Virus record (IMG/VR): IMGVR_UViG_3300025679_000008
Location: 1 to 62,587 of that record
DNA: 62,587 nt
Source: a virus
Direction: 5' to 3' (one strand)
Part shown: positions 1,750 through 30,955 of the stretch, piece after piece
Position numbering within the stretch: position 1 is the first letter of the stretch
Layout: every line of letters starts with the position of its first letter
The notes under the pieces: generated by a model
Database searches by the model: none
Told to the model about the DNA's origin: nothing
The model's input: the letters and a program-made list of their open reading frames with translations, nothing else
Program-made: the position numbers and the translations under genes

Positions 1750-1750
1750 A

Positions 1751-8322: not shown

Positions 8323-8529
8323 TCAAAGGCCTGGGCGCTTCAGCACGGCTGTATGTTTGTTGTGGAGATCCACCAGGGCCCGCACGTCCTCCTGGTGCTC
8401 GCGATCGGCCCGGCCGCGGGCGATCGCCAGTCGGCGCGCAAGCCCGTCCTGCCGGCGATGCAAGATCCGCTCGAGCGCGACCGGTGTGAACGGCGACAGC
8501 TTCAGGCCCTTGCTCGAGATCCCGCTCAC
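8323..8529 (-). CDS. Small basic protein (68 aa)
   Basis: The GTG at 8529 overlaps the stop of the glycosyltransferase (GTGA), which argues for translation. The 68 residues form a probable long charged helix (VALERILHRRQDGLARRLAIARG, ADREHQEDVRALVDLHNKH) after an LKLSPFTP opening. No family is recognised. It is the last gene before the operator-containing leader. Confidence 0.6.
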   Translation of the reverse strand: MSGISSKGLKLSPFTPVALERILHRRQDGLARRLAIARGRADREHQEDVRALVDLHNKHTAVLKRPGL

Positions 8530-9674
8530 GGCAGGATGAGCTGCTGGATCTTCCGGCCGATCGCCTCGAGTTTGATGGAGTCGATCGCGTGGCAGTGGCC
8601 GGTCAAGGCACAGGGCCCGTTCTTCGGGAAGTGGATCCCGCCTCGAGGATGGAACCCGCAGGGAGCGATCGGGCAGCCGCCGGCCTCCAGGCTCCCGCTG
8701 TTCCCATGAAGCGCGAAGACCGAAAGATAGTAGGCAGTCCGGATCTTGTAGTCGATCGGCCCGAAGAGCGCCACGCACGGCACGTTTAGCGCGCCGGCGA
8801 TGTGCATCATCGAGGAGTCCGGGGCGACGATCACATCGCAGGTCTCGGCCACGGCCGCGCTCTGGCGGAATGTGAGCTCGGCCTGGGCGCAATCATGCAG
8901 GCGCTCCCGGACCTTGACCATGACCGGCTCCGGCACGCCCTTGAAAAGGGCGCCGGTGGATCCCTCGCTTCCGAAGATCATGATCTCCCAGTCCTCCATG
9001 TAGAGCGAGTGGATGAGGCTGCTCATCTTCTGGGCGCTCATCGTCCGGTTGAAGGCGGAGGCGGCGAGCTGGATCCCGATCCTCTTCCTCGGGACGGTCT
9101 CGATCCGGCCCTCATAGCTTTGCCTGGGGTACCGCGCGGCCGCGTCGGCTCGTTCCTGGTCGGTGACCTTGTACTCGACCTTGGTGTCGCCCTTGAGATC
9201 CACGCCGAGGATCTCGGCCCGCAGGTAGATGCCGTGGGCGGTGCGGCCGCGCTCGCCCTCGTTCATGTTCTCGGTGAGGATGATCCTCGAGTACCGGCCG
9301 AAGAGTCCGTCCATGTTGAGTGGGTAGTCGACGAAGGCGTCGGGATAGTCCAGGTGCTCGTAGACGATGCGGTGGCGCCGGCGGCAGCAGACGTGAATCG
9401 TGATTCCTGGGTAGTAGCGCTTGTGCGCCCGCAGCGCGGGCCCGAGCATCATCTGATCTCCGAGGCCGCCGGGATGGATGACTAGGATGGCGTTGGCCGC
9501 GGGATCCTGGAGCTGCCGGCGGTTGATGTCGGCGAAGTAGCGGACCACCGCGGTCCCGCGATCAGCCTCGACCATGATCTCGGCCGCGTTCAAGTCGTCG
9601 ACCAGGTAGGATCCGGCCTCGAGCTTAGTACCGTCGGCGCGGTCCAGGGCGGTGCTTAGAGTTACGATGTGCAT
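8526..9674 (-). CDS. GT9 family glycosyltransferase (heptosyltransferase-like)
   Basis: The 382-residue protein has the GT9 N-terminal signature IHPGGLGDQMMLGPALRAHK at residues 66-85 and the C-terminal nucleotide-sugar site CDVIVAPDSSMMHIAGALNV followed by CVALFGP. ADP-heptose:LPS heptosyltransferases share these motifs, so the donor is probably ADP-heptose or another nucleotide sugar. It could modify host lipopolysaccharide, DNA or a virion protein. Its C-terminus contains four clustered cysteines (GGCPIAPCGF, GPCALTGHC), possibly a metal site. It overlaps both neighbours, so it is co-translated with a zinc-finger protein and a small basic protein. Confidence 0.88.
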   Translation of the reverse strand: MHIVTLSTALDRADGTKLEAGSYLVDDLNAAEIMVEADRGTAVVRYFADINRRQLQDPAANAILVIHPGGLGDQMMLGPALRAHKRYYPGITIHVCCRRRHRIVYEHLDYPDAFVDYPLNMDGLFGRYSRIILTENMNEGERGRTAHGIYLRAEILGVDLKGDTKVEYKVTDQERADAAARYPRQSYEGRIETVPRKRIGIQLAASAFNRTMSAQKMSSLIHSLYMEDWEIMIFGSEGSTGALFKGVPEPVMVKVRERLHDCAQAELTFRQSAAVAETCDVIVAPDSSMMHIAGALNVPCVALFGPIDYKIRTAYYLSVFALHGNSGSLEAGGCPIAPCGFHPRGGIHFPKNGPCALTGHCHAIDSIKLEAIGRKIQQLILP

Positions 9675-9904
9675 TAGCGGTTCTCGTTGGTTGGTCGGCC
9701 GCGGCCGGTGAGCTCCCTGGACTTGTAGCCGCCGGCGGCGCGCGATCGCTCCCGGTTCTTCTTCAGGTGGACAGGGCAGAAAACCTTGCTGTATCTAGCC
9801 CTGGGCATGCCGCAAACGCGGCACAGGCCGTCCCGTAGACGCCGCTTCTGGTGCCGAAGCGCGCGGTCCTCGATATGGGTAAACTCGTCCAGGATCTTCT
9901 TCAC
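9674..9904 (-). CDS. Small zinc-finger protein (76 aa)
   Basis: CRVCGMPRARYSKVFCPVHLKKNRER is the core: C-x2-C, then C-x2-H, flanked by basic residues, followed by an RxxGRGRPT end. This looks like a DNA-binding zinc finger of the type found in small phage regulators and HNH-flanking domains, without an HNH catalytic motif. It is the first gene of this leftward group and could regulate it. Start is ATG 9904. Confidence 0.75.
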   Translation of the reverse strand: MKKILDEFTHIEDRALRHQKRRLRDGLCRVCGMPRARYSKVFCPVHLKKNRERSRAAGGYKSRELTGRGRPTNENR

Positions 9905-14480: not shown

Positions 14481-17138
14481 ATGCCGGCGATAACCGTATA
14501 CACGGATCCGACAAAGCCTGGTATCTGCAAGGTGCCGGTCTTCAGTGTTGGCGATAGCCAGGCCTGGACGTTCCAATTCAACAACGGGAGCGCGCTCTAC
14601 GATCCGAACGCCGGCAGCGCCGGCGCCGTGTCGGTGGTGCTCGGGTACAAGAACGGCCTGGAGAATATCAACTACCCTTCGGCGTTCCAGTGGGTCGACC
14701 GGTTCAACAACCGGCACATCGGATCCTTTGCCCTGGCCGCTGGGGTCCCTGGATCCCTGGCCTTCGATGAACCTCCCCTGGGCGGGATCTTGGGCAGCAA
14801 CGGCGCCTGGATGTTGGGCGGCGAGGCACCATCCATAGACCAGCGGCTGTCTTCGTATCGCAAGATCTACGCGGATATCGGTGGCGCTGGATATCAATCC
14901 CCACCGGCAATCGGATTCGCTGGATCAGGGACCCTTGCGGCCGCCACGGCAGTTCTCACCGGTCGGGACGGTGGAGTCCAGGCGGTGAATGTCACAACTC
15001 CGGGCACTGGCTATACCAGCGCACCGGCGGTAGGGTTCTCGGGCGGCGGTGGATCCGGAGCTGCAGGTACGGCCATCATCGCCGAGGGCGGCGTGGTCTT
15101 CGTTGTGATCACGAACCCGGGATCAGGCTACACCAGCGCGCCTGCGGTGGCGTTCACCGGCGGCGGCGGGTCTTCGGCCGCGGGAAGTTCCGCGTTGTTC
15201 ACCAATCAGATCATGGGCGCGGCCCTGAGTAACTTTGGCTCGGGATACACTTCAACGCCCGTCGTCAGCCTTTCCGGCGGCGGTGGATCTGGCGGCGTGG
15301 TGGAGGCGCAGATTCAAAACGGATCCGTGGTCGGCGTCGTCGTTGTAAACCCTGGCACCGGGTACAATGCCGGCGCCACCTATCAGCTGGCTTTCAGCGG
15401 CGGTGGTGGATCCGGAGCCGATGCCACGGTCCTGGCGCACATCACAACGGATACGAATCCGGGCACCTTGGGTGCCGTCACCCTGATAAGTGGCGGAGCT
15501 GGGTACACGTCGGCGCCTACGGTGACCGTGGTAGCGGTCGGTGGATCCGGAGCGGCCGCGTCCCTGATCATCTCCGGCGGAGCCATCGTCGGCGCCACCG
15601 TCACGAATCCCGGCAGCGGGTACACGAACCCCCCGCTCACCGTGGTCACCGGCGGCGGCGGATCCGGCGGCGCAATTCACGCGGTAGTGTCCGGAGGCGT
15701 AGTTGCAGCCATCATCGTCGACGTTCCCGGCAGCGGGTACGGAGCTCCGACTGTCGCCTTCACCAATTCGTTGGGCACGGGAGGCACCCTCGCTGCCGTG
15801 ATGCCTTACGCCGGCGTCGGCGGGATCAATTCGATAACCAAGGTCAGCGGCGGGGCTGGGTACACCGCGCCTCCGACGGTTACCTTGGTCGGTGGAGATG
15901 GTACCGGGGCAACCGCCGTGGCCACCTGGGTAGCCGTCGGAAGCACGCCGGTAGTCTCTTTCGTCGTCACGAACCCGGGCACTGGGTACACGATTCCTCC
16001 GGCCGTGGTGATCTCAGGGGCCTCCGGATCCGGGGCGGCGGGGACCGCCATCGTGACCTCGGCAGGGATTCAATCCCTCGTGGTTGTCGCCGGCGGATCC
16101 GGGTACGAGGTCAACGCGCTGCTCCCCCTGGTCTTCAGCGGATCTAATCTTTCGCCTGCCACCGGCTACGCCACAACCGATAGCACGGGCCGCGTCATCT
16201 CGGCTACACTGACCGGGCCCGGGATCTACGGCGGCCCGGGCCTTCCCACGATAACCGTGTCCACAGGTAGCGGCACGGGCGCCTCGGTGGTGGCTTCGTG
16301 GATGCCTGGGCTTGGAGTCTCCTTGTCGATCTCAGCGCTTACTCTGGTGAGTGGAGGCTCTGGATATCCGGCAGGAGTGTCTGGATTCCCGATCAACTTT
16401 GTCGGGCCCTCCATCACCCCGGCCCAGGCCACGATCGACACCAATGGAAGCGGTGTGATCACGTCGGTATCCCTGACGGTTCCCGGGCTATACACGCAAC
16501 TACCGACGATATTCATCCCCTACTTTGGCTCGGGCGCTGTGATTCAGATCCAAGGACCGCAGCCGATTACGCCTTTGGGATCAGTATCATCCCTGACCGT
16601 GATAAATCCCGGCACAGGATATACCTCCGCTCCTTCGCTCACGTTCACTAGAGGAGGAGGCGCCAACGCTGCGGGTTCGGTATCAGCCACGTCCACGACG
16701 ATCTCTTCAGTAACCATCCAATCGGCTGGCGATTCATATCAGGCGGCCATCGATATATCTCTCACCCCGAATTATAATTCCGTCCTCAGCCCAGCCGGCA
16801 TGCTCACGTATGACGTGCCGTTCCTGAAGAACCCGATCACCCTCGAGGTCCTGAAGTCGGTGACGGCAACGCCGGCGACGAATGAGAGGACGATCTTTGG
16901 GGGCACGTCGTCGATATACGACAACTCGCTTTTGATAATCCGGCCGAAGGTCCTGGTTCAACCGTCCCTCACCCTGCAGCCCGACAATGTCACCTATGCG
17001 GCAACCTTCAACCCGGTCACGCCTTTCGTCCTGGCATGCCTCAGGTTCCGTAGGAGTATGACGATGGATCTCCTGATCTACGGAGGAGGGAGGCTCCTCT
17101 TCAGCGGCTCGCTCACGGTCTACAACATCATCCAGTAA
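14481..17138 (+). CDS. Large glycine-rich repeat tail protein (885 aa)
   Basis: After about 130 residues that look like an N-terminal attachment domain (YTDPTKPGICKVPVFSVGDS), about a dozen imperfect copies of a 35-50 residue unit follow. Each has the form V-x-N-P-G-[ST]-G-Y-T-S-A-P followed by a strand and a FSGGGGSGA turn. Such GSGYTSAP repeats occur in tail fibres and surface proteins of many phages. The last 100 residues are non-repetitive and may close the fold. The protein is probably a tail or virion-surface component. Gly-Ser is usually encoded as GGATCC here. Confidence 0.8.
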   Translation: MPAITVYTDPTKPGICKVPVFSVGDSQAWTFQFNNGSALYDPNAGSAGAVSVVLGYKNGLENINYPSAFQWVDRFNNRHIGSFALAAGVPGSLAFDEPPLGGILGSNGAWMLGGEAPSIDQRLSSYRKIYADIGGAGYQSPPAIGFAGSGTLAAATAVLTGRDGGVQAVNVTTPGTGYTSAPAVGFSGGGGSGAAGTAIIAEGGVVFVVITNPGSGYTSAPAVAFTGGGGSSAAGSSALFTNQIMGAALSNFGSGYTSTPVVSLSGGGGSGGVVEAQIQNGSVVGVVVVNPGTGYNAGATYQLAFSGGGGSGADATVLAHITTDTNPGTLGAVTLISGGAGYTSAPTVTVVAVGGSGAAASLIISGGAIVGATVTNPGSGYTNPPLTVVTGGGGSGGAIHAVVSGGVVAAIIVDVPGSGYGAPTVAFTNSLGTGGTLAAVMPYAGVGGINSITKVSGGAGYTAPPTVTLVGGDGTGATAVATWVAVGSTPVVSFVVTNPGTGYTIPPAVVISGASGSGAAGTAIVTSAGIQSLVVVAGGSGYEVNALLPLVFSGSNLSPATGYATTDSTGRVISATLTGPGIYGGPGLPTITVSTGSGTGASVVASWMPGLGVSLSISALTLVSGGSGYPAGVSGFPINFVGPSITPAQATIDTNGSGVITSVSLTVPGLYTQLPTIFIPYFGSGAVIQIQGPQPITPLGSVSSLTVINPGTGYTSAPSLTFTRGGGANAAGSVSATSTTISSVTIQSAGDSYQAAIDISLTPNYNSVLSPAGMLTYDVPFLKNPITLEVLKSVTATPATNERTIFGGTSSIYDNSLLIIRPKVLVQPSLTLQPDNVTYAATFNPVTPFVLACLRFRRSMTMDLLIYGGGRLLFSGSLTVYNIIQ

Positions 17139-19023: not shown

Positions 19024-20528
19024 TGCCGGCGAATAGCTACAACAGTCAGACTAACGCTCAGTCGGCGGTACCCGTTATCACGGCGAGCGCGTCGGCGCCG
19101 TGGCGCGGCTACACCGCGGGCCTGCCCTGGTACGGATCCCAGATCGAGGGCGAGATCTGGCTGGGCAACGGTACGGATACCAACCTGGTCTGGAAGCTCA
19201 ACAACACGCTCGCCGTCCTGGGCCCGGTCTCGACGCCGTCCGATCCCTACGATCCCTCCCAGTTTCAATTCCCGCCCCTCCTTGCCTGGGGCCAGGCGAT
19301 CGACGGCATCGTCTACGGCGTGGGGAACATCACCTTTCCGTTGAGGATCTGGGCCACGGAGCCGCCGAACATAAACTTCCCGGTCAACCAGGGAATTAAA
19401 ACGACCGCGTATTCCTGGAAGGACCTGCAGGTCCCGCCCGAAAGCACGGCGATCTCGGCCCTCAGCATCATCGGCGAGCGGATCGTGGCGCATCTCAATA
19501 TCGGATCCCCGATGGCACTCGCCCGGGTGAATGCCTCCTCCGGCGGCTGGAAGCTGGACCAGGTGCCGCTCGAGGCCAACGCCTCGGCGCTCACGCCGAA
19601 TTGCGTTCGGGATACCAAGTTCGCGCCGTTCTACCTGGGGACGGACCTCGAGATCTACAGCCCGAAGATGCAGCGGTCCTACAATAAGTCCGGGACCCGG
19701 GACGTCGACATCGTCACCGACAAGAGCAGCGGCGCCTGGAACCGCCAGGCCACGAAGCCGGCCGCCGGCACGGACTACTTCATCGTCTACGATGAGAAGA
19801 ACGGGCGCTTCTGGGTTTGGATGCAGATGGCGGCCACTGGGCGAAACATCCTCTACTGCTACGATCAGCGGGCCCACGCGATCAACGGGCCCTGGCACTA
19901 CCCTGACTTCCTCGCCGTCTGCCAGCTGAAGGACTCCCAGAAGGGGTGCATCGTCGCCGGCATCACAAGGGACGGGGCCTTCCTATGGGCCGACCTGGGC
20001 TCCGTCGGCAAGATGCCGGACGAGACGTACAGCGATCCCTTGGGCGTCAACTACGGGATCTTCGGATCCGCCCCCACGATCACGCCCGGGATACCATACG
20101 TCGGCGTCAGCGCGGACGGCACGCAGTTCATGGAGGTCCTGAACGGCGTTGCGATCAACATCTCGAATCCCTTTGGCGACTGGGCCTTGGGCCCGATCGT
20201 GGCGTCCATGTTCTTCATGAATGCGAAGGTCTCGATCATCGAGCTATCGGAGGCCGACTTCGGGCAGCCGGATCTCATGAAGGAGTTCGTCAACTGCCGC
20301 TCCCTCTGGAAGAAGAGCAGCCGCGTCTACGCCGGCTACTACGTGAACGCCAACGGCTACAACTACGGGGGGTTCCGCGGTCTGCAGTTCCCGAATGACA
20401 ACTGGGAGAATGCGATCGGCGGGATGGGGTCGACGGCGAAGCTGCGGGTGATAGCTATCACCTTCAACGACCAGCCGGCGCGGCTCTTAGCCCTGAGTCC
20501 TGAGTTCTTGGTAGCAGTTGAATCGTGA
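19023..20528 (+). CDS. Hypothetical tail protein (501 aa)
   Basis: Start ATG overlaps the preceding stop (TAATG). The protein is beta-rich throughout, with repeated WxxG-type strands (YGSQIEGEIWLGNG, DYFIVYDEKNGRFWVWMQMA, GAFLWADLGSVGK) suggestive of a beta-propeller-like or tail-tube fold. No transmembrane or enzymatic motif is seen. It is the last of the adjacent tail genes before the modification cassette. Position suggests a tail hub, tube or adhesion component. Confidence 0.65.
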   Translation: MPANSYNSQTNAQSAVPVITASASAPWRGYTAGLPWYGSQIEGEIWLGNGTDTNLVWKLNNTLAVLGPVSTPSDPYDPSQFQFPPLLAWGQAIDGIVYGVGNITFPLRIWATEPPNINFPVNQGIKTTAYSWKDLQVPPESTAISALSIIGERIVAHLNIGSPMALARVNASSGGWKLDQVPLEANASALTPNCVRDTKFAPFYLGTDLEIYSPKMQRSYNKSGTRDVDIVTDKSSGAWNRQATKPAAGTDYFIVYDEKNGRFWVWMQMAATGRNILYCYDQRAHAINGPWHYPDFLAVCQLKDSQKGCIVAGITRDGAFLWADLGSVGKMPDETYSDPLGVNYGIFGSAPTITPGIPYVGVSADGTQFMEVLNGVAINISNPFGDWALGPIVASMFFMNAKVSIIELSEADFGQPDLMKEFVNCRSLWKKSSRVYAGYYVNANGYNYGGFRGLQFPNDNWENAIGGMGSTAKLRVIAITFNDQPARLLALSPEFLVAVES

Positions 20529-20621
20529 TTGACGCCAGCCTGCGCGGTTCCATCACCCTTCCGTCCGAGAACCAGGAGGAATTAGCTTGCGGACTATATC
20601 GGGCGTATATTGGTTGCCCGA

Positions 20622-20840
20622 ATGGCTACCATCGTACGCAAGGCCCTGTTCGTCCAGATCCCCGAGAAGGAGCACAAGAAGGTAACTGACGAGTGCAAGC
20701 GCCTGGAGATCCCGCAGTGGCAGTTTATCGCGCACGCCATCCGCCATGCACCGAAGCTCACCAGGGGAAAGGGTGACGCGGCCCACGTCATCGTGTCGGG
20801 TCTCGAGCCGCGGAATCGCAAGAGCATCGGGCGTGGCTAA
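20622..20840 (+). CDS. Small basic regulator-like protein (72 aa)
   Basis: The ATG at 20622 opens a 72-residue protein with ALFVQIPEKEHKKVTDECKRLEIPQWQFIAHAIRHA, which resembles the helix-turn-helix end of small ribbon or RHH-type regulators, but I cannot identify the family. The best ribosome-binding site (AGGAGG at 20575-20580) is too far upstream, so the start is uncertain. The final 8 bases overlap the glycosyltransferase start. Confidence 0.55.
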   Translation: MATIVRKALFVQIPEKEHKKVTDECKRLEIPQWQFIAHAIRHAPKLTRGKGDAAHVIVSGLEPRNRKSIGRG

Positions 20841-22359
20841 GTTTCTGGTCAGCGTGCTTTCCCTCAACCGGGTTGAGGGAGTCAAGAAGTGTCTATCCGC
20901 GGTCCTCGCCGGCGGTGGCGACTTCATCCTGCGCCTGGTGGACAACGCCTCGAGTGACGGCACCGGCCGATACTTTGAGCAGCTGTCGGCGTCGGATCCC
21001 AGGGTGATATCGCCGACGATCGAGAAGGAAAACCAGGGGTTCCAGATCCCGAATGAGGAGTCATTGCGGCATGCCATTGCCCGCGAGATCCCCTACCTGG
21101 TCCTCCTGAATGACGACACGCGGCCGCCGGCGGGGTGGCTGGACCGCATGGCGGCCGTCTTCGATCGGGATCCTGGAGTTGCGGCCGTCGGCGCACTGGG
21201 CGGATGCAACGAGATCACACCGGCGTTTCACGGCACAGGCGGGGTTCGCCTCGAGTACATCGAGGGGTCCTGCCTCATGATCGACATCAAGAAGCTGCTG
21301 CGGGTTCGCTCAACACTCTTCGATCCGAACCTGACCTTCATGTACGGGGAGGACGCGGACCTTAGCCTCGAGCTGCGCCGGGCCGGTTGGCGGATCGCCC
21401 AGGTGAACATGAATATCGAGCACCTGGGGGCCGCGAGCCGCCTCGCCAATCCTGAGCTCAAGGCCCGGTGCGAGGCGGCCGAAGCCAAGAACCACAAGTA
21501 CCTTCTAAGGAAGTGGGCGCACTACCTGAAGGTCCGGCGCTTTGACCACAGGATCGTGGTGCGCCGGCGGCACGCCTCGGGGGACGTCGTCCTGATCACC
21601 CCTTTCCTGCGGGCCCTGGCGAAGCAGAACCCGCTCTCGCCGCTCTTCGTCGAGACGATGTTCCCGGATCTCTTCTACGGAAACCCGCACGTCTCGTATG
21701 CCGCCCAGAAGGTTCACCCGCTGGCCGATGATCTTACGATCGACCTGGACATGGTCAGCGAGAACGGCCCGATGCGGCACTTTGTCTCGAGCTACTTCAG
21801 CGCCGGACCAATCGACCTGCCCCGGCCCAAGAAGTATGTGACCGAGATGCACTTTGACCAGGCCTGGCAGAAGCCGGCGCCCGGGCGCTGGTGCGCCATG
21901 CACGTCGGGCCGACTACCTGGAAGGCTAAGAATTGGCCGTACGATCGCTTCAACGCGGTGGCCGAGCTGCTCTCCGTGAAGGGATGGAAGATCGTCCTGG
22001 TGGGCAACGGATCCGACGGCGACGTCGTCCGCCACCAGGACTACCGCAACCAGACCACCACCCGCCAGCTGGCCGCGATCCTAGCCGGCTGCGATCTCTT
22101 CGTCGGCGTCGATAGCTTCCCGATGCACGTCGCCCAGGCCGTCGGTACGCCGACCGTGGGGATCTTCGGCGTCACTGAGGGCAAGTACATCATGACCGAT
22201 GGATCCCCGCACGTCTCATGTGACGCGGATCCCATGCACCCGCGCGCCGGCGAGCGCCACCGAGTAGCCGGGGTTTGTTATATTGACGAACCCGGGGACG
22301 TGATCAGGACTGTCTCGGTTACCCAGGTACTCAAAGCCATCGACTCCCTAACCAAATGA
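20833..22359 (+). CDS. GT2-GT9 fusion glycosyltransferase (508 aa)
   Basis: Two glycosyltransferase domains are fused. Residues 1-230 are GT2: VSVLSLNRVEG, VDNASSDGTG at 36-45, the metal-binding NDDT at 93-96, and ED at 173-174 in YGEDADLSLELRRAGW. Residues 245-505 are GT9: GDVVLITPFLRALAKQNP, and CDLFVGVDSFPMHVAQAVGT with VGIFG at about 420-446. GT2 enzymes use UDP- or dTDP-sugars; GT9 enzymes transfer heptose. The start is the GTG at 20833, since upstream codons belong to the previous gene. It could add two sugars in sequence to one acceptor. It begins a modification cassette within the structural operon. Confidence 0.85.
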   Translation: MAKFLVSVLSLNRVEGVKKCLSAVLAGGGDFILRLVDNASSDGTGRYFEQLSASDPRVISPTIEKENQGFQIPNEESLRHAIAREIPYLVLLNDDTRPPAGWLDRMAAVFDRDPGVAAVGALGGCNEITPAFHGTGGVRLEYIEGSCLMIDIKKLLRVRSTLFDPNLTFMYGEDADLSLELRRAGWRIAQVNMNIEHLGAASRLANPELKARCEAAEAKNHKYLLRKWAHYLKVRRFDHRIVVRRRHASGDVVLITPFLRALAKQNPLSPLFVETMFPDLFYGNPHVSYAAQKVHPLADDLTIDLDMVSENGPMRHFVSSYFSAGPIDLPRPKKYVTEMHFDQAWQKPAPGRWCAMHVGPTTWKAKNWPYDRFNAVAELLSVKGWKIVLVGNGSDGDVVRHQDYRNQTTTRQLAAILAGCDLFVGVDSFPMHVAQAVGTPTVGIFGVTEGKYIMTDGSPHVSCDADPMHPRAGERHRVAGVCYIDEPGDVIRTVSVTQVLKAIDSLTK

Positions 22360-22592
22360 GCATGTTCACAAAGACAGACCGCGCCGCCACGAGACCCCCA
22401 GGGAGCGGAGACAGGTACCCGCTCTGGCTCAACCTGAAGAGCGGCAACCGTGTTCGCGGCTGGTACGAACCCAAGTCCGGCCGCTACATGAAGTTCCCGG
22501 CCCCTGGTACCGATGGCCCCTCGGTGGATGTCCACGATGACGTCGATACCTGGGAGGTCGCCCGGGATCTCAGCTCCAGGACCGGGCAATGA
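22356..22592 (+). CDS. Hypothetical protein (78 aa)
   Basis: The ATG overlaps the preceding stop (ATGA). The 78 residues are charged and contain RYPLWLNLKSGNRVRGWYEPKSG and a DVHDDVDTWEVARDL end. No membrane segment. It lies between the GT2-GT9 fusion and a second GT2, so it may act with them, but there is no direct evidence. Confidence 0.6.
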   Translation: MSMFTKTDRAATRPPGSGDRYPLWLNLKSGNRVRGWYEPKSGRYMKFPAPGTDGPSVDVHDDVDTWEVARDLSSRTGQ

Positions 22593-23365
22593 GTGTTCCC
22601 CGCCAGCGCGGCTTGACCGGCATTGTCCCTGTACGCAACGGGGACGAGCTCGACTATTGCTGGCGCCTGGCTGTGGCGAGCCTCCTGCCGGTGTGCGACG
22701 AAGTCATTATCAGCGACGGCGAGTCCACCGACGGCACGTTCGAGGCGGCGGAGGCCCTGGCGGCCGCCAATCCCAAAATCAAGGTGGTGCGCTGGGAGTG
22801 GCCGGATCCCAAGGGCGATCACTGGTTCCTGACCAAGTGGCTCAACTGGACCCAGCAGCTCGCCGGCTACGACATGATCGTCCACCTGGACGCCGACGAG
22901 GCGATCGACCCCTGCAGCTACCCGCGCATGCGCGAGGCGGTCCAGCACCGGGAGGCGCTCTGGTTCCACCGGATCAACCTCTGGCTGGATCCCCAGCACG
23001 AGGCGCCGCACGGCACGGTTTGCGCTCACCGCGTCGTCTACATGGGCCCGGGCGAGTACAAGGCGATCTCCGACAATATCTACGTGGAGGGCGAACCGGA
23101 CATCAAGCAGGTCGCCAAGAGCGACGACTCGCTCCGGATCTGGCACCTGGGGTTTCTCCGGGACAAGGTGAAGTTCATTAAGAAGTGGAGGACCGAGGCT
23201 ACCTATCTCGTGAACACCGTGGATCCTCGCTGCGTGCAGTGCGAGCAGACGGGCGAGGACTGGGTCGCGCTGACCATGTGGAAGGATCGGGAGCTGATCG
23301 TCCACGGCCTCGAGATCCCGGAGTTCCTAAAGCCCTGGTTGAAGGAGAGAGGACACAGACCATGA
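22589..23365 (+). CDS. GT2 family glycosyltransferase (258 aa)
   Basis: Start overlaps the preceding stop by ATGA. The fold is GT-A: VPVRNGDELDYCWRLAVASL, EVIISDGESTDGTFEAAEAL at 38-57, and the metal-binding DADEA at 101-105 after DMIVHL. A WPDPKGDHWF segment lies between. Nothing identifies the sugar. It is probably a single-sugar transferase, downstream of the fused enzyme, and could extend the same glycan. Membrane segments are absent, so the acceptor is likely soluble or a virion or DNA component. Confidence 0.85.
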   Translation: MSVPRQRGLTGIVPVRNGDELDYCWRLAVASLLPVCDEVIISDGESTDGTFEAAEALAAANPKIKVVRWEWPDPKGDHWFLTKWLNWTQQLAGYDMIVHLDADEAIDPCSYPRMREAVQHREALWFHRINLWLDPQHEAPHGTVCAHRVVYMGPGEYKAISDNIYVEGEPDIKQVAKSDDSLRIWHLGFLRDKVKFIKKWRTEATYLVNTVDPRCVQCEQTGEDWVALTMWKDRELIVHGLEIPEFLKPWLKERGHRP

Positions 23366-23655
23366 ATATAAACTGGAAGGTGATAACAAAAGAGTCGACG
23401 TGCTGGCAATACGAGGTCGATGGGCTCGTGTGCCGGATCGAATACTGCGGCGCTTTCAATCCTAGCATAGAGCTCGCTAATGTCGGCTTCCATGCGCGGA
23501 CCGGTATGGGGCTATTCGATCATTCCTGGTATTCCTTCAGGATGTCCATGACAGGGTTCCGCACGCTCGAGTCCGCCCAGAAGTGGGTGGAGGCAAATAT
23601 ACAGTTCGCTATCATCAATATCGCCCCGTTAAAGAAGGCGATCGAAGCGCGATGA
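23362..23655 (+). CDS. Hypothetical protein (97 aa)
   Basis: ATG 23362 overlaps the glycosyltransferase stop (ATGA). It begins MNINWKVITKESTCWQYEVDG and has a VCRIEYCGAFNPSIELANVGF segment with two cysteines near each other, followed by a beta strand and a helix. The protein is alpha-beta in profile. I do not recognise a family. Co-translated with the acetyltransferase-like gene that follows. Confidence 0.6.
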   Translation: MNINWKVITKESTCWQYEVDGLVCRIEYCGAFNPSIELANVGFHARTGMGLFDHSWYSFRMSMTGFRTLESAQKWVEANIQFAIINIAPLKKAIEAR

Positions 23656-24074
23656 ACGAGAAGGAATTTGAAGTCTCGACCGATGACGCGCTGCTCGACC
23701 TGGACTGGGTTGTGCCGACCATCAAGGCCTCCTACTTCGGGGGCTGGCGTAGCGAGGACCTCATCCGGAAGTCCATCAAGGGATCGCTCAACTTCGGACT
23801 CTACTGGCGGCCGGCGGACCAGCCGCGGGTGTGCCACCAGGTCGGCTTCGCTCGAGTCATTACCGATGCCTGCACGTTCAACTACGTGTGCGACGTGATC
23901 ATCGACCAGGACCGCCGGCGTGACGGCCTCGGGCAATTCCTCATGCGGCACATCATAGCTCATCCGGATCTCGCCAGCGGCGTCAGCGTGCTAGGTACCA
24001 GGGATGCGCACGGGTTCTATTCCAAGTTCGGGTACAACCGCGTCGAGATGATGAAGAGGATCCCGCCGAAATGA
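23652..24074 (+). CDS. GNAT family acetyltransferase (140 aa)
   Basis: The 140-residue protein has the GNAT core: CQVGFARVITDACTFNYVCDVIIDQDRRRDGLG, with the acetyl-CoA binding RRDGLGQFLM loop (R/Q-x-x-G-x-G/A type), and the C-terminal GTRDAHGFYSKFGYNRV strand-turn-strand of GNATs. The substrate cannot be read. Within a glycosyltransferase cassette it could acetylate an amino sugar, or be an independent anti-host enzyme. ATG overlaps the previous stop. Confidence 0.82.
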   Translation: MNEKEFEVSTDDALLDLDWVVPTIKASYFGGWRSEDLIRKSIKGSLNFGLYWRPADQPRVCHQVGFARVITDACTFNYVCDVIIDQDRRRDGLGQFLMRHIIAHPDLASGVSVLGTRDAHGFYSKFGYNRVEMMKRIPPK

Positions 24075-24526
24075 AAAATAAAAAAAAGCTGTTGAGGCGT
24101 GGGTATCATGCACTTGGTCAGGGTGCGTTAGGAGCCAAGCCGCTCCGCCGTGGGATCCAGGTAATCGACACGGCTACGATAAAAGCATTAGGCGCCGACA
24201 AGGGAGGTTCCGTTCGTAAGAACAAACCCGCCGTAAGGGTAAAGCTACCTGGCCCGTGGAACACCCGGAGCAAGACGTTTAATCGTACTTTCTCTTGGTT
24301 TAACGCAAAGCGCATTGAAGAGACTATAGAAGCTGAGCTTAGGGCTGCCCTTGACCTCACTCACGATGCAACCCCATTCGACATAATCGAGAAGGTGCTG
24401 GCGCTGCGTGGCTTTAGTGACGCTCAAAAATTCACGTTCTATACCCGCAAGATGATGCCCCATGAAATAAATAAATTTCTGGGTGCTCCCAAAGGTCCGT
24501 ACGCATCATTCAAGGTAGGCAAATGA
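24071..24526 (+). CDS. Hypothetical protein with atypical composition (151 aa)
   Basis: Start ATG overlaps the previous stop. The opening MKNKKKLLRRGYHALGQGA is lysine-rich. Codon use is less GC-rich than that of its neighbours (for example runs such as aaaaataaaaaaaagc and aataaataaatttct), which suggests later acquisition. The middle has an RVKLPGPWNTRSKTFNRTF stretch and helical segments; no catalytic motif is recognised. It is inserted between a GNAT protein and a methyltransferase-like protein. Confidence 0.65.
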   Translation: MKNKKKLLRRGYHALGQGALGAKPLRRGIQVIDTATIKALGADKGGSVRKNKPAVRVKLPGPWNTRSKTFNRTFSWFNAKRIEETIEAELRAALDLTHDATPFDIIEKVLALRGFSDAQKFTFYTRKMMPHEINKFLGAPKGPYASFKVGK

Positions 24527-25167
24527 CCCCGACGCCCTACTACCTGGACAGCCTCTACCGCTGCACCAAGGCGGACCTGGATGCCTATCGGCGGTGGACG
24601 GACTTCCTTCCGCGGCGCGCGGAAGGGGAGCCGTACCACTCGGGTCCTCATAGCCTGCAGCGGTTCCGCCTGGTCTGGGAGCTCGTGAGGCCCACGGCAG
24701 TCCTTGAGATCGGATTCAACCTTGGCCACTCGGCTGTTATGTGGCTCGAGCTGGGCGCGAAGCAGGTTGTGAGTATGCAGCCGTGGCCCAACAAGGGCAC
24801 TCTGGAAGCCAAGGCTGCGATAGAAGGTAGGTATGGGAATCGGCACCGACTACTCCAAGGGGATTCGGAATTGGCGGCCGAAGATTTAATGCTCCGGAAT
24901 TACATCGGGGGCGGATTCGATCTGATCTTCATCGACGGATCCCATGAGCGCGCCTGGGCGGAGCTCGATATCGCCCTGGGTAAGGAGCTCGAGGCCCCCT
25001 ACTTCCTCATGGATGACTACGACACCCACCACGGGCCCGGAGTCGTCGACGCGGTCCAGGCGGCCGGCCTGATTCCTCTGGCGATCTTCGGCACGATGGC
25101 CCTGTGCGCTCCTCCAACGCGCTACACCCAACGCGCCGATCCGCTCGGCACCAACTACTATGAGTGA
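24523..25167 (+). CDS. Class I SAM-dependent methyltransferase-like protein (214 aa)
   Basis: AVLEIGFNLGHSAVMWLE (about residues 60-77) is the glycine-rich SAM-binding motif I; FDLIFIDGSHERAWAELDIAL is typical of the O-methyltransferase or methyltransf_24 group, with FIDGSH (about 130). The product lacks a membrane anchor. Substrate is unknown; a sugar, small molecule or protein are possible. It overlaps the next methyltransferase by 8 bases, so both are probably produced together. Confidence 0.78.
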   Translation: MTPTPYYLDSLYRCTKADLDAYRRWTDFLPRRAEGEPYHSGPHSLQRFRLVWELVRPTAVLEIGFNLGHSAVMWLELGAKQVVSMQPWPNKGTLEAKAAIEGRYGNRHRLLQGDSELAAEDLMLRNYIGGGFDLIFIDGSHERAWAELDIALGKELEAPYFLMDDYDTHHGPGVVDAVQAAGLIPLAIFGTMALCAPPTRYTQRADPLGTNYYE

Positions 25168-25711
25168 ATCCGCGAAGTACCTCCACCTGACCCGGCCGTA
25201 TCTCCAGGGTAACGGCATCGACTGCGGCAGCGGCAGCTGGCCGGTGATCCCGTCCGCCATCCAGGTCGAGCTCCCGCGCGATCGCTTCAAGGCCTACACG
25301 AGCCGGGATCTCCCTGATCACGTCGAGTGGCCGGGCGACATCATGGATCTCCCGTTCAAGGACAACGTCCTGGATTACGTCTACAGCTCCCATCTCATCG
25401 AGGACTTCAGCCGAGAGCCGCTTCCGGACAGGCCGCACATGCCGACCTGGCCCAAGCTCTTCAAGGAATGGAAGAGGGTGCTGAAGCCCGATGGCTACAT
25501 GGTAATCATCGTTCCGGAAGTCGCCAGGTGGAAGCGCACGATCGAGCTCGGCCAGGCGCCCAACTGTGCGCACTGGGCCCCCGAGCCCAGCCTGGGCGAC
25601 TGCACGAGGATCGCCACCGAGGCCGGCTTCCTGGTCCTGTTTGAACGCTTGACTGATCTCGATCCGAGGGACTACTCGATCCTGATGGTCGCGATCAAAC
25701 CCAGGGAATAG
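25160..25711 (+). CDS. Class I SAM-dependent methyltransferase-like protein (183 aa)
   Basis: The pattern is that of short methyltransf_11-type enzymes: GNGIDCGSGSWPV (motif I), VEWPGDIMDLPFKDNVLDYVYSSHLIEDF (motif post-I to II), and LKPDGYMVIIVPEVARWK (motif after PDG). The motif I sequence (DCGSG) is close to the classical DxGxG. It has no obvious target domain. It may modify a carbohydrate or the product of the neighbouring genes. It ends 2 bases before the terminase start. Confidence 0.8.
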   Translation: MSESAKYLHLTRPYLQGNGIDCGSGSWPVIPSAIQVELPRDRFKAYTSRDLPDHVEWPGDIMDLPFKDNVLDYVYSSHLIEDFSREPLPDRPHMPTWPKLFKEWKRVLKPDGYMVIIVPEVARWKRTIELGQAPNCAHWAPEPSLGDCTRIATEAGFLVLFERLTDLDPRDYSILMVAIKPRE

Positions 25712-25712
25712 C

Positions 25713-27500
25713 TTGCCCGAGCTGACCGAAGCGCAGCTGCAGGATAAGAAGGACCAGCTCACCCAGGCTGCGATCACGAGCTATTACAAGGACCACGTCG
25801 GCGCCTGGTTTCAGCGCTACGGGGTACTGAAGAATCCCGAGGGTATCGTCACCAGGTACCCGAACCTAAAGCCCCGGGTAGTCCAGAAGCGGATGTTTGC
25901 CGAGGCCGAGAAATGCCTCCTCGCCGGCAAGCCCTGTATGATGATGGTCCTGAAGCCCCGTAAGGACGGCGCGTCTACCGGCGCCCAGGCGATCATCTAT
26001 CACTGGCTCCGGCGCTGGCACGGCCGCAACGCGGCGATCATGGGAGACATCATCGGAACGTCCGACACCGTCTTCGAGCTCTTCAGGCACTTTGCCCAGA
26101 ACGATACCTTCGACTGGAAGGACGCCTTCGGGGGCCTGAGCCTCGATAACGATCAGACGGATGATATCACCCTAGGCAACAAGTCGACCTACAAGAAGGT
26201 CACGGCCGGATCCAACAACGCCGGCCGCTCCGGCACGATCCAGGTGGCGAACCTAACGGAGGTCGCCTACTACCCCGACGCCGGCGAGCGGGATCCCGCG
26301 CTGGGCTTCCTGGGATCCTGGCATGCCGACGGCGCCTCGAGTCTCGGCATCATGGACTCCACGGCGAACGGGCCCTACGGGACGTTCTATGACTACTGGA
26401 TGGCCGACAACTCCTGGACGAAGATCTTCGTCGCCTGGTTCGAGGAGCCTGAGCACGCGATCGCTTTCGAGGACGAGGAGATGCGCCGGGAGTTCCAGCG
26501 CTCAATGGGACCCGAGGAGCTCGAGGAGCAGGCCAAGTACAACGTCACGCTCGAGCAGCTGCGCTGGCGCCGCAAGATGATCGCCGACAAGTGCGGGGGT
26601 GACGACGACAAGTTCCGCCAGGAGTACCCGTCCGACGCGATCGAGGCCTTCCTGCGCAAGAGTCGCACCAGGTTTAAGGCGGAGACCTTGGCGTCAATGG
26701 AGCGCGCGGCCGCGGCGCTGCCGCCCAAGATCGTCAACCTATCGAAGCAGGATGACGGCACCGTGTCCCCGTACCCGGATCCCCTGGGCAGCGTTCACAT
26801 CTGGGAGATGCCGAAGATCGGCTGCAAGTACATCATGGCCGTCGACTCATGCACCGGCCGGGACCAGCAGTCCCAGGCCCGCGGTCAAAAGCCGGACTGG
26901 CATTCGGTCGGAGTTTGGCGCGACGAGTACCTGGACCTGGCCAACCATCGGCACTATCCGCCGATGCTGGTCGCTCACCACTGGAGCCAGCTCGAGGTCG
27001 ACGTCATGGTCGAGATCGCGGCCGCCATGTCGATCTTCTACGGCCTGTGCATGGCCATCCCGGAGGTCAACGGGTGTGGCCTCTATCCGGTCAAGAAGCT
27101 CCAGGAGCTCGAGATCCCGGTGTGGGAGAGAAAGCGGGACAACGCCCAGACCAACACCGTCGACGTGAGCGGGGGATGGATGACGACTGAGGGGGTAAGG
27201 AAGACGATCATCGACAATCTCGCCGGCCTGATCGCCAGGTGGAAGGTCGAGGATCCCACGTTCGAGTGCTTCAGTATGCACATGATAAACCAGCTCAAGA
27301 AGTTCATCCTGGACAAGACCGGCCACGCGGCCGCCATGCCAGGAGAGAACGACGACGACGTCCTGCAGGGGGCGATCGGCCTCTACAACCTGGGATCCGC
27401 TACCGAGATGAAGGAGCACAAGCGCCCGCGGGTGAACGTCGTGGACATGCTCCGCAAGCAGCACTGGGCCCTTGGTAGCAGTGGCAGCCGGCGGAATTGA
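25713..27500 (+). CDS. terL: Terminase large subunit (595 aa)
   Basis: The 595-residue protein has a terminase ATPase: a variant Walker A at KPRKDGASTG (81-90), Walker B-like VANLTEVAYYP (about 177-187), and then a RNase H-type nuclease with D in AVDSCTG (about 377), E in IPEVNG (about 451) and D in DDDVLQGAIGLYN (about 548). Those three acids are the metal-binding set. The start is TTG 25713, one base after the upstream stop. No small subunit is adjacent. It packages the genome and cuts concatemers. Confidence 0.9.
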   Translation: MPELTEAQLQDKKDQLTQAAITSYYKDHVGAWFQRYGVLKNPEGIVTRYPNLKPRVVQKRMFAEAEKCLLAGKPCMMMVLKPRKDGASTGAQAIIYHWLRRWHGRNAAIMGDIIGTSDTVFELFRHFAQNDTFDWKDAFGGLSLDNDQTDDITLGNKSTYKKVTAGSNNAGRSGTIQVANLTEVAYYPDAGERDPALGFLGSWHADGASSLGIMDSTANGPYGTFYDYWMADNSWTKIFVAWFEEPEHAIAFEDEEMRREFQRSMGPEELEEQAKYNVTLEQLRWRRKMIADKCGGDDDKFRQEYPSDAIEAFLRKSRTRFKAETLASMERAAAALPPKIVNLSKQDDGTVSPYPDPLGSVHIWEMPKIGCKYIMAVDSCTGRDQQSQARGQKPDWHSVGVWRDEYLDLANHRHYPPMLVAHHWSQLEVDVMVEIAAAMSIFYGLCMAIPEVNGCGLYPVKKLQELEIPVWERKRDNAQTNTVDVSGGWMTTEGVRKTIIDNLAGLIARWKVEDPTFECFSMHMINQLKKFILDKTGHAAAMPGENDDDVLQGAIGLYNLGSATEMKEHKRPRVNVVDMLRKQHWALGSSGSRRN

Positions 27501-27536
27501 TTGACCGTCCAGGGGATTGGTGTTTAACCGGGGATC

Positions 27537-28268
27537 ATGCCGCCCGCCGCCCGGGACTATCTCGACCCCGACGTACCCGTGGGAATGCTGCGCCGGTCCG
27601 ACTCCGAGCTCAACAGCTCCTACGACATGGGGACCGATCCGTACACCGGCAAGATCATCAACAGCTCGATCGCCACCGGCCGCAGCAACGCTCGGATGAT
27701 GGAGGGTCTGATCCCCAGCTACGCGGTCGGAGGTTTCGGATCGGTAAGGCCCCAGGACCAGGGGCGCGCGGTCGCCCTCAGGAACGGATCCGGATCCCCC
27801 TACGATGATCCGATCGCCGGCGGGGCTCACTACCAGGTCCCGCGGTCACTGTCGGGCGACGTCTTCGGCGGCCGGATCTCGGCTCCGGACATGAAGAAGT
27901 TCCTTGCCCCGAAGCGCGAGGCTCACCGGGACGAGCTGCTCGGCGCCGCCCACGATGCGGAGATGTCCTCGAGGAAGCAGCTCGGCACCTACCAGAGCAT
28001 GAGCGAGCAGGCCGGCCCGGAGCTCACCCAGTTCTTCAATACCCTGCCGTCGAACCAGCAGGCGGATCTTCTAACGAAGCCTTCAGCCGACATCGTTGCG
28101 GCGCTGCGCAACCATCCTCTCAGGAAGAAGCCTGCGGCCCCGGCCGCGCCCGCGGCGCCGGCTCCGACCATGTTTCCCACGATCACGCCCCAAGGTACCG
28201 GCGGTGAGCGCCCGCAGGCGGATCTCGACACCAGCGACTACTTCGAGCTCGCTGGATCCGAATCATGA
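27537..28268 (+). CDS. Hypothetical virion-region protein (243 aa)
   Basis: The first half is Gly/Ser/Asn-rich (MLRRSDSELNSSYDMGTDPYTG) and the C-terminal 60 residues are Pro/Ala-rich. Central helices (EAHRDELLGAAHDAEMSSRKQLGTYQSMSEQ) suggest a coiled coil. It resembles low-complexity internal virion proteins of podoviruses and ends by an ATGA overlap with the next gene. Function unknown. Confidence 0.6.
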   Translation: MPPAARDYLDPDVPVGMLRRSDSELNSSYDMGTDPYTGKIINSSIATGRSNARMMEGLIPSYAVGGFGSVRPQDQGRAVALRNGSGSPYDDPIAGGAHYQVPRSLSGDVFGGRISAPDMKKFLAPKREAHRDELLGAAHDAEMSSRKQLGTYQSMSEQAGPELTQFFNTLPSNQQADLLTKPSADIVAALRNHPLRKKPAAPAAPAAPAPTMFPTITPQGTGGERPQADLDTSDYFELAGSES

Positions 28269-28664: not shown

Positions 28665-30557
28665 GTGGCCGACCCCGACTACTTCGGTGACACCTACTCG
28701 GATCCATCCCTGCGGCGCCGCGGGGGTGCTGCGGTCGATGACGTAGAGGAAGCGCGGCATATCGGCCGCTCGAGGGCGTACATAAGCCAAGGCTTCCTGC
28801 CTCCAGCTCGAGACAGCCTGGGCGCCGGCGCCGACTATTTCAACGCGCCGACTGCTCCCAGGACCCGGCGGCCCGCTCCTGCAGGGCCCCTGGATAATCC
28901 AGTCTACAAGGATCTCCACGCCAAGCGCGAGGTCCTCACGCAGACCGAGGCGCTGTACCACAAGCAGCTCGAGGACTTCGACAAGGGTGAGGGCGCTGTG
29001 CTCCGCCCCGAGAGGGATCCCGCTACCGGCCGAGAGCTACGCCAGGGCGCCGCCCAGGCTCATGTCCAGTCCCTTGTGGACAAGTCCCAGGGTGATGCGA
29101 CGACGGGCATGGTCCCCAAGGAGGTCCGTGACGCCGAGAAGAACCTGCGCCTCCTGCAGGAGAAACGTCAGCGCATAGCCGACGAAGCGTCTCGGGTGTC
29201 CCAGGCGCGCCAGTCCTTCGACCAGGACGTCTACATGCCGGCCCGCAGTGCCATGCTAGGAGGCGACGGATCCGCGGCGCCGGCGGCAGCTGCAGTTCCG
29301 ACGCCGGCCTCGCCCGTCCAGGACTTCATGCAGCGCGACGGCGGGCCCGCCATCCGGATCCCTCAGGGCAGCATCTATGATCCGGCCGCGCCGCCGGGCC
29401 CTAAGAGCGGCGCCGGTGAGCCGACACCGACGCCGGCGGCCCCGAAGGTTGAGGCAGCTCCGAAGGCCCCGGCGCCACAGGATTCAGGATCAGACAGCCT
29501 GGAGCGGATCAAACAGCGCCACGATGAGTACCAGGCCACGCTCGATGCCGGCGGCGACAATCTCCGCCAGGATGTGCGCGATCGCCTCAAGGCCCAGGTC
29601 TCGATCCTCAACTCCAAGTTCCAGCAGGGAACGATGGAGCAGGCTGATCAAATCAATAGCCTGTTCGCCGGTCACATAACTGGTAAGGGCGCGGTCGGAG
29701 CGCCGGTGGATCCCAAGGCAGCTCAGGCCTACTTCGACAAGTACGCGGCGCTGGGAGATATCTATGCCCGCCACCAGGGCGCGGTGATCGACGCAGCCAA
29801 CAAGCCGGCACTCCAGATCCCGCACCTGAAGGATAACGCTTCGGATTCGGAGCTCATGGCCGCCACGAAAGGCGCGGTCGACGGTCTGTCCGACGTCGCC
29901 AGCGGCCTAACCTCGCCGTCCAATGCGGTGCTGATCGGATCCCTGGGCGTGCTCGGACGGGCCGCGAAAATAGGCTACGCTCCGGCGCGCGCGATCCTGA
30001 TCGCCGCCCAGGCTGAGTTCACGAAACAGATGGCCGAAGGCACCTACGAGGGAGGCAAGCAGTTCATCCAGGATATCCACGATCCCAACGTCTCGCTGCG
30101 GAAGGCGGCTGGCGATGCCACGAAGACCATCGCCAGCGCGGTCTTCACGGCCGGAACGGCTCATGGGATGGTAGGCGAGATCCGGGGCCCTGCAGGAGAT
30201 CCCGCGGTTGGCGATCAGCCCTCACGCCCGGGCGGTGGTGCGAAGCCTCCGGGAGATATAGGCACACCAACGCCTCCGCCGGCGCCGCGGCCGCCTACGG
30301 ATACGTCCGTGCCTCTGGACGATGAGCTCGGCTCGAGGATCTCGGCCCTGCGCAAGAAGGCCACAGATGCCGAGGCTCCGCCTCCTCCAGAGCCTCCTGG
30401 GACCCTGGATCACCGCGCGGCCGGCTACGATACCCGCGAGTCCTTCGACCAGGACTACCACGCCAAAGGCCAGCACGACGTCTTCGAGACGGCCGACGAG
30501 TTCCTGCGCCGGGTCTACTGCTCCAAGCTCGGCCGCGGCAACTTCTCAATCGCATGA
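28665..30557 (+). CDS. Putative internal virion protein (630 aa)
   Basis: A 630-residue protein, GTG start at 28665. Helical coiled-coil regions occur at about 85-190 and 270-330; the linker segments are Pro/Ala-rich. The segment around 390-470 (VDGLSDVASGLTSPSNAVLIGSLGVLGRAA, PARAILIAAQAEF) is hydrophobic-alternating as in membrane-penetrating ejection proteins, with no strict transmembrane helix. The last 40 residues (DTRESFDQDYHAKGQHDVFETADEFLRR) look folded. I infer a component of the ejection machinery, partner of the giant protein downstream. Confidence 0.65.
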   Translation: MADPDYFGDTYSDPSLRRRGGAAVDDVEEARHIGRSRAYISQGFLPPARDSLGAGADYFNAPTAPRTRRPAPAGPLDNPVYKDLHAKREVLTQTEALYHKQLEDFDKGEGAVLRPERDPATGRELRQGAAQAHVQSLVDKSQGDATTGMVPKEVRDAEKNLRLLQEKRQRIADEASRVSQARQSFDQDVYMPARSAMLGGDGSAAPAAAAVPTPASPVQDFMQRDGGPAIRIPQGSIYDPAAPPGPKSGAGEPTPTPAAPKVEAAPKAPAPQDSGSDSLERIKQRHDEYQATLDAGGDNLRQDVRDRLKAQVSILNSKFQQGTMEQADQINSLFAGHITGKGAVGAPVDPKAAQAYFDKYAALGDIYARHQGAVIDAANKPALQIPHLKDNASDSELMAATKGAVDGLSDVASGLTSPSNAVLIGSLGVLGRAAKIGYAPARAILIAAQAEFTKQMAEGTYEGGKQFIQDIHDPNVSLRKAAGDATKTIASAVFTAGTAHGMVGEIRGPAGDPAVGDQPSRPGGGAKPPGDIGTPTPPPAPRPPTDTSVPLDDELGSRISALRKKATDAEAPPPPEPPGTLDHRAAGYDTRESFDQDYHAKGQHDVFETADEFLRRVYCSKLGRGNFSIA

Positions 30558-30955
30558 AAGACAAATACGGATCCGAACATATAGCCTTCGACTGGGGTGG
30601 TGTCCTAAGTGATCGCCCGCTCATGTGGTTCCTGGCGGACAACCTCAGCTTTTGCGGCATCAAGGTTTCCATCATTTCGTGGTGTGGTCCCAATGATGCC
30701 GTCCGTTCTCAGGAGGGAAAGGATCGCCTGGCGGAAAGCGGGATCCCCTGGTCTAACATCATCGGCTTCGATCAATACGGTAGTGAGGACGGCATCATCG
30801 TCCCCGCCGACGCTCCCCGCTTCGACTACATGGTCGGTATCGGCAAGGTCCGGAAGATGCGGGAGATCGGGGCGACGGCGATCTTCGACGACAACCCCTG
30901 GGTCGTTCGTGCCGTCCAGGACTCCGGCCTCCAGGCGCTACAGGTCATTCGATGA
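30554..30955 (+). CDS. HAD-like protein (133 aa)
   Basis: FDWGGVLSD at 12-20 resembles HAD motif I (DxDGTLxD), with the second acidic residue replaced by glycine, and FDDNPWVVRAV at 111-121 is HAD motif IV. S42 may serve as motif II and K98 or K101 as motif III. A proper HAD phosphatase needs D-x-D; loss of the second Asp suggests it is a phosphotransferase variant or a non-catalytic relative. The length is less than the usual HAD with a cap domain. It overlaps the ATP-grasp-like gene, so the two probably act in one pathway. Confidence 0.7.
   Translation: MKDKYGSEHIAFDWGGVLSDRPLMWFLADNLSFCGIKVSIISWCGPNDAVRSQEGKDRLAESGIPWSNIIGFDQYGSEDGIIVPADAPRFDYMVGIGKVRKMREIGATAIFDDNPWVVRAVQDSGLQALQVIR

Follow-up and report, generated by a model that had tools for sequence, protein, structure and literature searches.

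A glycosyltransferase and methyltransferase cassette coupled to the terminase gene of an uncultivated phage recurs in unrelated phages and may decorate the virion

Phage virion glycosylation is so far known by experiment mainly from mycobacteriophages. Che8, Corndog and Myrna glycosylate their capsid and tail-tube proteins with glycosyltransferases of their own (Freeman et al. 2023, as cited in PMC12363180 and PMC12619734). Here we describe a gene cassette in an uncultivated phage, IMG/VR record IMGVR_UViG_3300025679_000008, the entire 62,587-base record of which is termed the window. The cassette encodes a fusion of family 2 and family 9 glycosyltransferases (GT2-GT9), a second GT2 enzyme (GT2b), an acetyltransferase and two methyltransferases, and leads into the gene for the terminase large subunit (TerL). 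Because this enzyme set, in a run with packaging genes, recurs in unrelated phages, its product is probably a short methylated glycan, attached to the virion or, with lower probability, to the surface of the host. As in the mycobacteriophages, the glycosyltransferases are phage-encoded. The window differs from the mycobacteriophage system in its GT9 component, the GT2-GT9 fusion and the dedicated methyltransferases beside terminase and portal genes. Moreover, when 50,697 deposited phage records were searched with the window GT2-GT9 and GT2b (tblastn, 1e-5), no match and hence no mycobacteriophage-type homology was found.

Sets of glycosyltransferases, epimerases and methyltransferases also occur in the polysaccharide clusters of cyanophages and jumbo phages (PMC7824862). 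Those clusters comprise 8-15 genes with full sugar synthesis and have been interpreted as modifying host capsule or lipopolysaccharide (LPS), whereas the window cassette is compact, with no genes for making sugar nucleotides and with coupling to the packaging genes. The podovirus ctQWt234 (MW202801, Manatee Spring) has a distantly related TerL and a glycosyltransferase cassette between the genes for the major capsid protein (MCP) and the stabilization protein. By annotation, this cassette encodes two glycosyltransferases, a methyltransferase, PhyH, a NodB-like protein and an Fe-S oxidoreductase, with an acetyltransferase encoded separately. These enzymes differ from those of the window, as none is matched by window proteins (phmmer, 1e-3) and no GT9 is annotated.

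The genes of the coupled run, and one further glycosyltransferase gene, are the following.

20622..20840, plus strand: small open reading frame (ORF) of 72 amino acids (aa), first gene of the coupled run, ribbon-helix-helix-like by sequence
20833..22359, plus strand: GT2-GT9 fusion glycosyltransferase, 508 aa, GTG start (PF00535 and PF01075)
22356..22592, plus strand: 78-aa linker ORF, no family match, coding score positive
22589..23365, plus strand: GT2b, soluble family 2 glycosyltransferase (PF00535), invariant D-A-D motif
23362..23655, plus strand: 97-aa ORF, GC content 0.52, no family match
23652..24074, plus strand: GNAT acetyltransferase (PF13508)
24071..24526, plus strand: 151-aa ORF, no family match, foreign composition
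24523..25167, plus strand: MT24, class I S-adenosylmethionine (SAM) methyltransferase (PF13578)
25160..25711, plus strand: MT11, class I SAM methyltransferase (PF08241)
25713..27500, plus strand: TerL (phrog terminase match; tblastn to annotated terminases)
8526..9674, minus strand: GT9e, GT9 glycosyltransferase (PF01075)

Successive genes along 20622-25711 overlap by 8, 4, 4, 4, 4, 4, 4 and 8 nucleotides (nt), a 1-nt gap precedes TerL, and 20622-27500 is a single coupled plus-strand block ending in TerL. A search for plus-strand promoter-like or terminator-like sites in 20400-27600 found none. The first-pass annotation had placed five enzymes (GT2-GT9, GT2, GNAT and two class I methyltransferases) at 20833-25711, with overlapping starts and small linker genes. 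All five score above their Pfam cut-offs at these positions, and the description of the junctions holds for each of them, three small ORFs (78, 97 and 151 aa) lying between the enzymes. An RHH_1/RHH_5 match present among the window ORFs would belong to the first gene of the run. The 151-aa ORF is probably a recent insertion in the cassette, because its GC content (0.50) and GC content at third codon positions (0.53) are foreign to the surroundings (about 0.63 and about 0.85, respectively).

The fusion carries both of its glycosyltransferase domains in one 508-aa ORF. The GT9 match (PF01075, 3.7e-20, 72.7 bits against a curated cut-off of 22) is accompanied by the GD aspartate and the D-S-x-x-M-H donor-site motif of the family, and the GT2 match (PF00535, 1.1e-8, likewise above cut-off) by a DXD-type motif and an ED motif. 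In an AlphaFold model (pLDDT 81), the GT-A fold of the GT2 half occupies approximately aa 1-237 and the GT-B fold of the GT9 half approximately aa 239-508. Residues invariant in nine homologues include N93/D95 and E173-D174 in the GT2 half and G250-D251, D427 and H432 in the GT9 half. The GT-A half aligns well to polypeptide N-acetylgalactosamine transferases (Z about 20), and its matches at Z about 18-20 also include chondroitin polymerase. The GT-B half is closest to 3tov, WaaF, WaaC and the protein heptosyltransferase TibC (Z 24 to 19).

GT9e was omitted from the first-pass annotation and is the only other glycosyltransferase detected in the window (PF01075, 2.3e-13, 50.5 bits). Its gene lies near the capsid genes on the strand opposite to the cassette. 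The protein is extended at its N-terminus by about 56 aa, and four C-terminal cysteines and the donor-site D-S and H are kept in eight sequences; the window GT2-GT9 lacks these cysteines. Structural matches of the GT9e model (pLDDT 81) include WaaF, WaaC and 3tov. TibC and the bacterial autotransporter heptosyltransferases share the GT9-like GT-B fold, and TibC matches the GT2-GT9 profile (1e-6) as well as both models. Additionally, GT9e has an N-terminal extension and four conserved cysteines, where TibC-type enzymes have an N-terminal beta-barrel and an iron finger of four cysteines. The spacing of these cysteines differs, being C-x2-C-x15-C-x11-C (the iron finger) in TibC and an invariant C-x4-C-x15-C-x5-C in GT9e, and four-cysteine tails may occur in other GT9 enzymes. 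Furthermore, WaaF and 3tov match better than TibC, and the window has no evidence of a ring or an autotransporter substrate.

GT2b (PF00535, 7e-7) has seven homologues at 31-41% identity, and its D-A-D motif is kept in eight sequences. Its sole PDB profile match is GmaR (4.3e-7). The glycosyltransferase domain of GmaR transfers N-acetylglucosamine to flagellin (PMC9638930). The match is restricted to the GT-A core, and GT2b lacks the TPR and antirepressor domains of GmaR. MT24 (Methyltransf_24, 1.9e-10, 42.0 bits against a cut-off of 26.3) has five homologues at 37-43% identity, and its best PDB profile matches are small-molecule O-methyltransferases. MT11 belongs to Methyltransf_11 (1.3e-9, 39.0 bits against a cut-off of 21.2), and the GNAT protein (PF13508, 2.4e-8) has a homologue, 46% identical, only in the viral record G005. 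Judged by these motifs and matches, the lineage of the window encodes two methyltransferases, an acetyltransferase and three glycosyltransferases whose motifs are intact; apart from GT9e, each is translationally coupled to the terminase.

Homologous cassettes were sought in collections that are fragmentary; retrieved loci are designated L and viral records G, and L103 is part of G005. Single-protein scans of viral_contigs with the fusion or TerL, and a two-row GT9 alignment, retrieved nothing. A hand-made degenerate GT9 donor-site motif, MHxAxAxGTP, gave the first relatives, two more GT2-GT9 fusions with a neighbouring MT11 homologue, and an alignment of the motif-found fusions (A4) then retrieved 42 viral loci. 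By phmmer with window proteins, the order GT9e, GT2-GT9, GT2b, MT24, MT11 is found in L099, L100 and L101, whereas L104 has GT9e, GT2-GT9, GT2b, MT11 and L103 has GT9e, GT2b, MT24, GNAT, GT2-GT9, TerL. These findings lend good support to the earlier proposal that the structural operon contains a modification pathway, and the possibility that the cassette is not conserved, which would have told against that proposal, is itself refuted. Since homologues of GT9e sit inside the cassette in G001, G002, G003, G005 and G006, GT9e is, by this comparison of gene orders, a displaced member of the same set.

The relationships among these phages suggest that the cassette moves. G005 is a true relative of the window: its TerL is 50% identical, and its portal, MCP, scaffold, internal virion protein and tail genes match. 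G001, G002 and G006, in contrast, have essentially only the cassette in common with the window (phmmer). Yet the window fusion is 43, 42 and 37% identical to those of G001, G002 and G006, respectively, and 40% identical to that of G005, and in the GT2-GT9 tree it falls in a seven-row clade with G001-G006 (support 100/99). Moreover, none of the 80 loci fetched by TerL similarity carries any cassette match. On these grounds, the cassette looks like a unit exchanged between lineages rather than a passenger of one terminase lineage.

The neighbours of the cassette are often packaging genes. TerL of the phrog_2 type lies by the cassette in L099-L101, L104, L118 and L119; TerL and a portal gene do so in L105 (portal phrog_156) and L107; and in L106, TerL (phrog_38) and portal (phrog_12) genes lie about 5 kb from the cassette and diverge from it. 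In G005 (L103), GT9e, GT2b, MT24, GNAT and GT2-GT9 lie directly upstream of TerL. A scan with GT9e found 13 other viral records, every one with a TerL or portal match in the neighbourhood; among the loci with portal or TerL near GT9e are L237, L240, L244, L246, L247 and L248, the last at about 7 kb. The head and packaging genes beside the cassette span at least four terminase types, the neighbours of L102 and of some AT-rich loci not being among those identified. Glycosyltransferase genes are thus linked to virion genes, as in a phage system that glycosylates virion proteins. A 692-aa protein of L099-L104 considered as a portal and a 381-aa protein considered as an MCP were not confirmed by profile comparison.

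Methyltransferase and glycosyltransferase are in some phages a single polypeptide. MT11 is fused to GT2-GT9 in L105, L107 and L111; in L105, one 667-aa protein matches GT2 at 6-126, GT9 at 327-454 and Methyltransf_11 at 563-612 (Pfam). These fusions were counted as Rosetta-stone support for glycan tailoring. In 16 of 20 contigs counted, some of them near-duplicates, MT11 is either fused to GT2-GT9 or encoded close to it. Additionally, variants of the cassette elsewhere encode sugar C-methyltransferases (Methyltransf_13/14; L105 and L107), a nucleotidyltransferase and an epimerase (L116) or a polysaccharide pyruvyltransferase (L102), so the product is most likely a decorated glycan, as judged from gene content.

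Several of these loci have peculiarities of their own. The nine-gene cluster at L097 1318-10453 (L116) encodes GT2, GT2-GT9, nucleotidyltransferase, radical SAM-like, C-methyltransferase-like, RmlC-like, epimerase, MT11 and glycosyltransferase-like proteins, and amounts to a near-complete nucleoside diphosphate (NDP)-sugar pathway in a phage. At L094 4652-7963, a 1104-aa viral protein joins glycosyltransferase modules in one chain, including GT9- and GT2b-like parts. In G005, GT2-GT9 is extended at its C-terminus (L103 11498-11908), and the extension contains HAD-like motifs (VDLDGTL...) to which Pfam gives no match.

The first-pass annotation had offered three targets for the pathway: a virion protein, an envelope glycan and phage DNA. 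The first two fit the enzyme set, whereas DNA is disfavoured. Were DNA the target, the cassette would glycosylate and methylate phage bases as a hypermodification against restriction. GNAT proteins and methyltransferases do occur in DNA hypermodification pathways. Phage glycosyltransferases that hypermodify DNA are known as well (work cited in PMC12619734). Against this, a ThyA/hydroxymethylase homologue (PF00303) was found in none of 13 records by a search whose control worked, and a C5 methylase in only one of the 13, PF00145 being absent from the window. No Tet/JBP match was found, in a search whose control likewise gave no signal. Furthermore, cassette relatives carry NDP-sugar and C-methyl-sugar enzymes, and the cassette sits with late genes rather than with replication genes. 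A role in DNA modification is therefore very improbable.

The explanation that we favour, though at roughly even chances, is that the enzymes, acting late in infection, assemble a methylated oligosaccharide on a protein of the virion, most likely in the head region. In the cytoplasm, GT9e or GT2b would attach the first sugar to a Ser or Thr residue of a structural protein, and GT2-GT9 would add two more sugars from host nucleotide sugars, the donor of its GT9 half probably being ADP-heptose. MT11 and MT24 would O-methylate the resulting oligosaccharide and GNAT would acetylate it. Such a decoration would change the virion surface, e.g., adsorption, stability or recognition. A protein acceptor is favoured by the coupling to packaging genes, the solubility of the enzymes and the GmaR match.

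Several observations weigh against this explanation. The position of the genes suggests co-expression with head genes and does not say which acceptor is used; the folds matched in the structural comparisons and in GmaR are common ones, which do not fix function. In the window, GT9e is encoded on the other strand, which is presumably expressed early. Moreover, no acceptor protein common to the window and the unrelated cassette-bearing phages was found (phmmer), the sole exception being a weak fibre-like-repeat match (g53 in L100, 4e-4). This last result would be explained if the acceptor were the LPS core, since the LPS inner core, the classical substrate of GT9 enzymes, is a universal acceptor. 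The cassette would then alter a host envelope glycan, its GT9 and GT2 enzymes extending the core or O-chain late in infection and methyl and acetyl groups capping it, and progeny would avoid re-adsorbing to debris or infected cells. WaaC and WaaF, to which the GT9 parts show some of their closest structural similarity, are soluble LPS inner-core GT9 enzymes; the pyruvyltransferase of the L102 cassette also fits, and the cyanophage glycosyltransferase clusters have been so interpreted by others (PMC7824862). However, tight TerL coupling and head-gene neighbours in several lineages are unusual for conversion genes, and GmaR, the nearest relative of GT2b in the PDB, glycosylates a protein. The cassette proteins, furthermore, have no convincing transmembrane segment (highest KD19 value 1.8), and neither a GtrA/GtrB-like membrane protein nor the flippase GtrA and polyprenyl-linked membrane glycosyltransferases of Gtr-type O-antigen conversion were found in the cassette. 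Modification of the envelope is unlikely, although it is the foremost of the alternatives.

Acceptors other than the virion were also considered. The enzymes might make a small soluble glycoside, or might glycosylate an exported phage protein such as the signal-peptide-bearing, Ser/Thr-rich product of 41664-44408. TibC-type enzymes glycosylate exported adhesins (PMC4358343). Five late ORFs in 40882-45904 (at 40882, 41664, 44413, 44836 and 45491) have signal-peptide- or lipoprotein-like N-termini as judged by eye, starts that are unusual for virion genes, and the 914-aa product of 41664-44408 consists of 30% Ser+Thr against a median of 11%. Ser/Thr-rich fibre-like repeats are, however, common in phages generally, and G005 has the cassette without a homologue of this product (phmmer). 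We regard this explanation as quite improbable, more so than envelope modification and less so than DNA modification.

Returning to the virion, the favoured acceptor, a broader formulation can be offered tentatively, at somewhat less than even chances. The cassette may represent a previously undescribed, horizontally exchanged head-glycosylation system. GT2-GT9, in some cases fused to a methyltransferase, would act with the second GT9, a GT2 and O-methyltransferases to assemble a methylated oligosaccharide, which may contain heptose, on proteins of the capsid or the portal region. The system would be shared by at least four lineages of tailed phages, unrelated to one another, whose hosts are uncultivated bacteria. 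The first-pass annotation had held that no described phage carries this set. Among the 50,697 deposited phage records this is so; contigs of uncultivated phages, however, do carry the set repeatedly. No deposited phage was found with the whole fusion: the best hits there extend over no more than about half of the protein, in essence its GT2 half, and neither GT9e nor MT11 gave a match. The fusion was also found in none of 56 bacterial loci retrieved by a scan that used one motif and was not exhaustive, and a phage GT2-GT9 fusion was not found described in the literature searched. Within the searches made here, the fusion, sometimes with a methyltransferase, thus appears to be found in viruses only. 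If the proposal is true, a modular set that moves between unrelated phages and repeatedly settles by terminase and portal genes would make virion glycosylation a general strategy. It would also make a soluble GT2-GT9-methyltransferase set available for direct tests in vitro, and profiles of the fusion and GT9e would provide a sequence handle for finding such phages.

An adjoining pair of late genes, read earlier as HAD and ATP-grasp-like partners of the cassette, did not hold up in that role. The HAD-like ORF (30554-30955) and the ATP-grasp-like ORF (30952-32220) exist, and neither matches a Pfam family. The best PDB profile match of the latter is phosphoribosylamine-glycine ligase (E 0.14, not significant), so neither identity could be confirmed. 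Among 12 cassette-bearing records, the ATP-grasp-like gene is found only in G005; by this distribution, the pair follows the phage lineage and not the cassette. The product of 30952-32220 is a conserved 422-aa late protein, 53% identical in G005.

The window encodes approximately 90 genes, called by a simple script. In the gene map, minus-strand genes occupy most of 443-9904 and 47441-62579, and the plus-strand late block, whose late expression is inferred from position, occupies 9994-47454. The genome is podovirus-like: it encodes a major head protein (phrog_334) and a portal (phrog_1216/SU10 portal) together with a terminase and a large internal virion protein. The MCP gene is at 11194-12675 and the portal gene at 38087-40150. 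A 126-base direct repeat is present at 1-126 and 62452-62577. Because it sits at both contig ends, within a tandem-repeat gene, the genome is probably complete and circular, opened in a repeat array. A bactofilin-like match occurs among the ORFs. The 885-aa virion protein encoded at 14481-17138 contains many GSGYTSAP...GGGGSGA repeats, and its G005 counterpart, an ORF of about 404 aa, matches residues 2-255 only, so the repeat region appears to expand and contract. Finally, the late block encodes a lipase/esterase-like protein at 45906-46685 (phrog_21992), a class 3 lipase match being present among the window ORFs.

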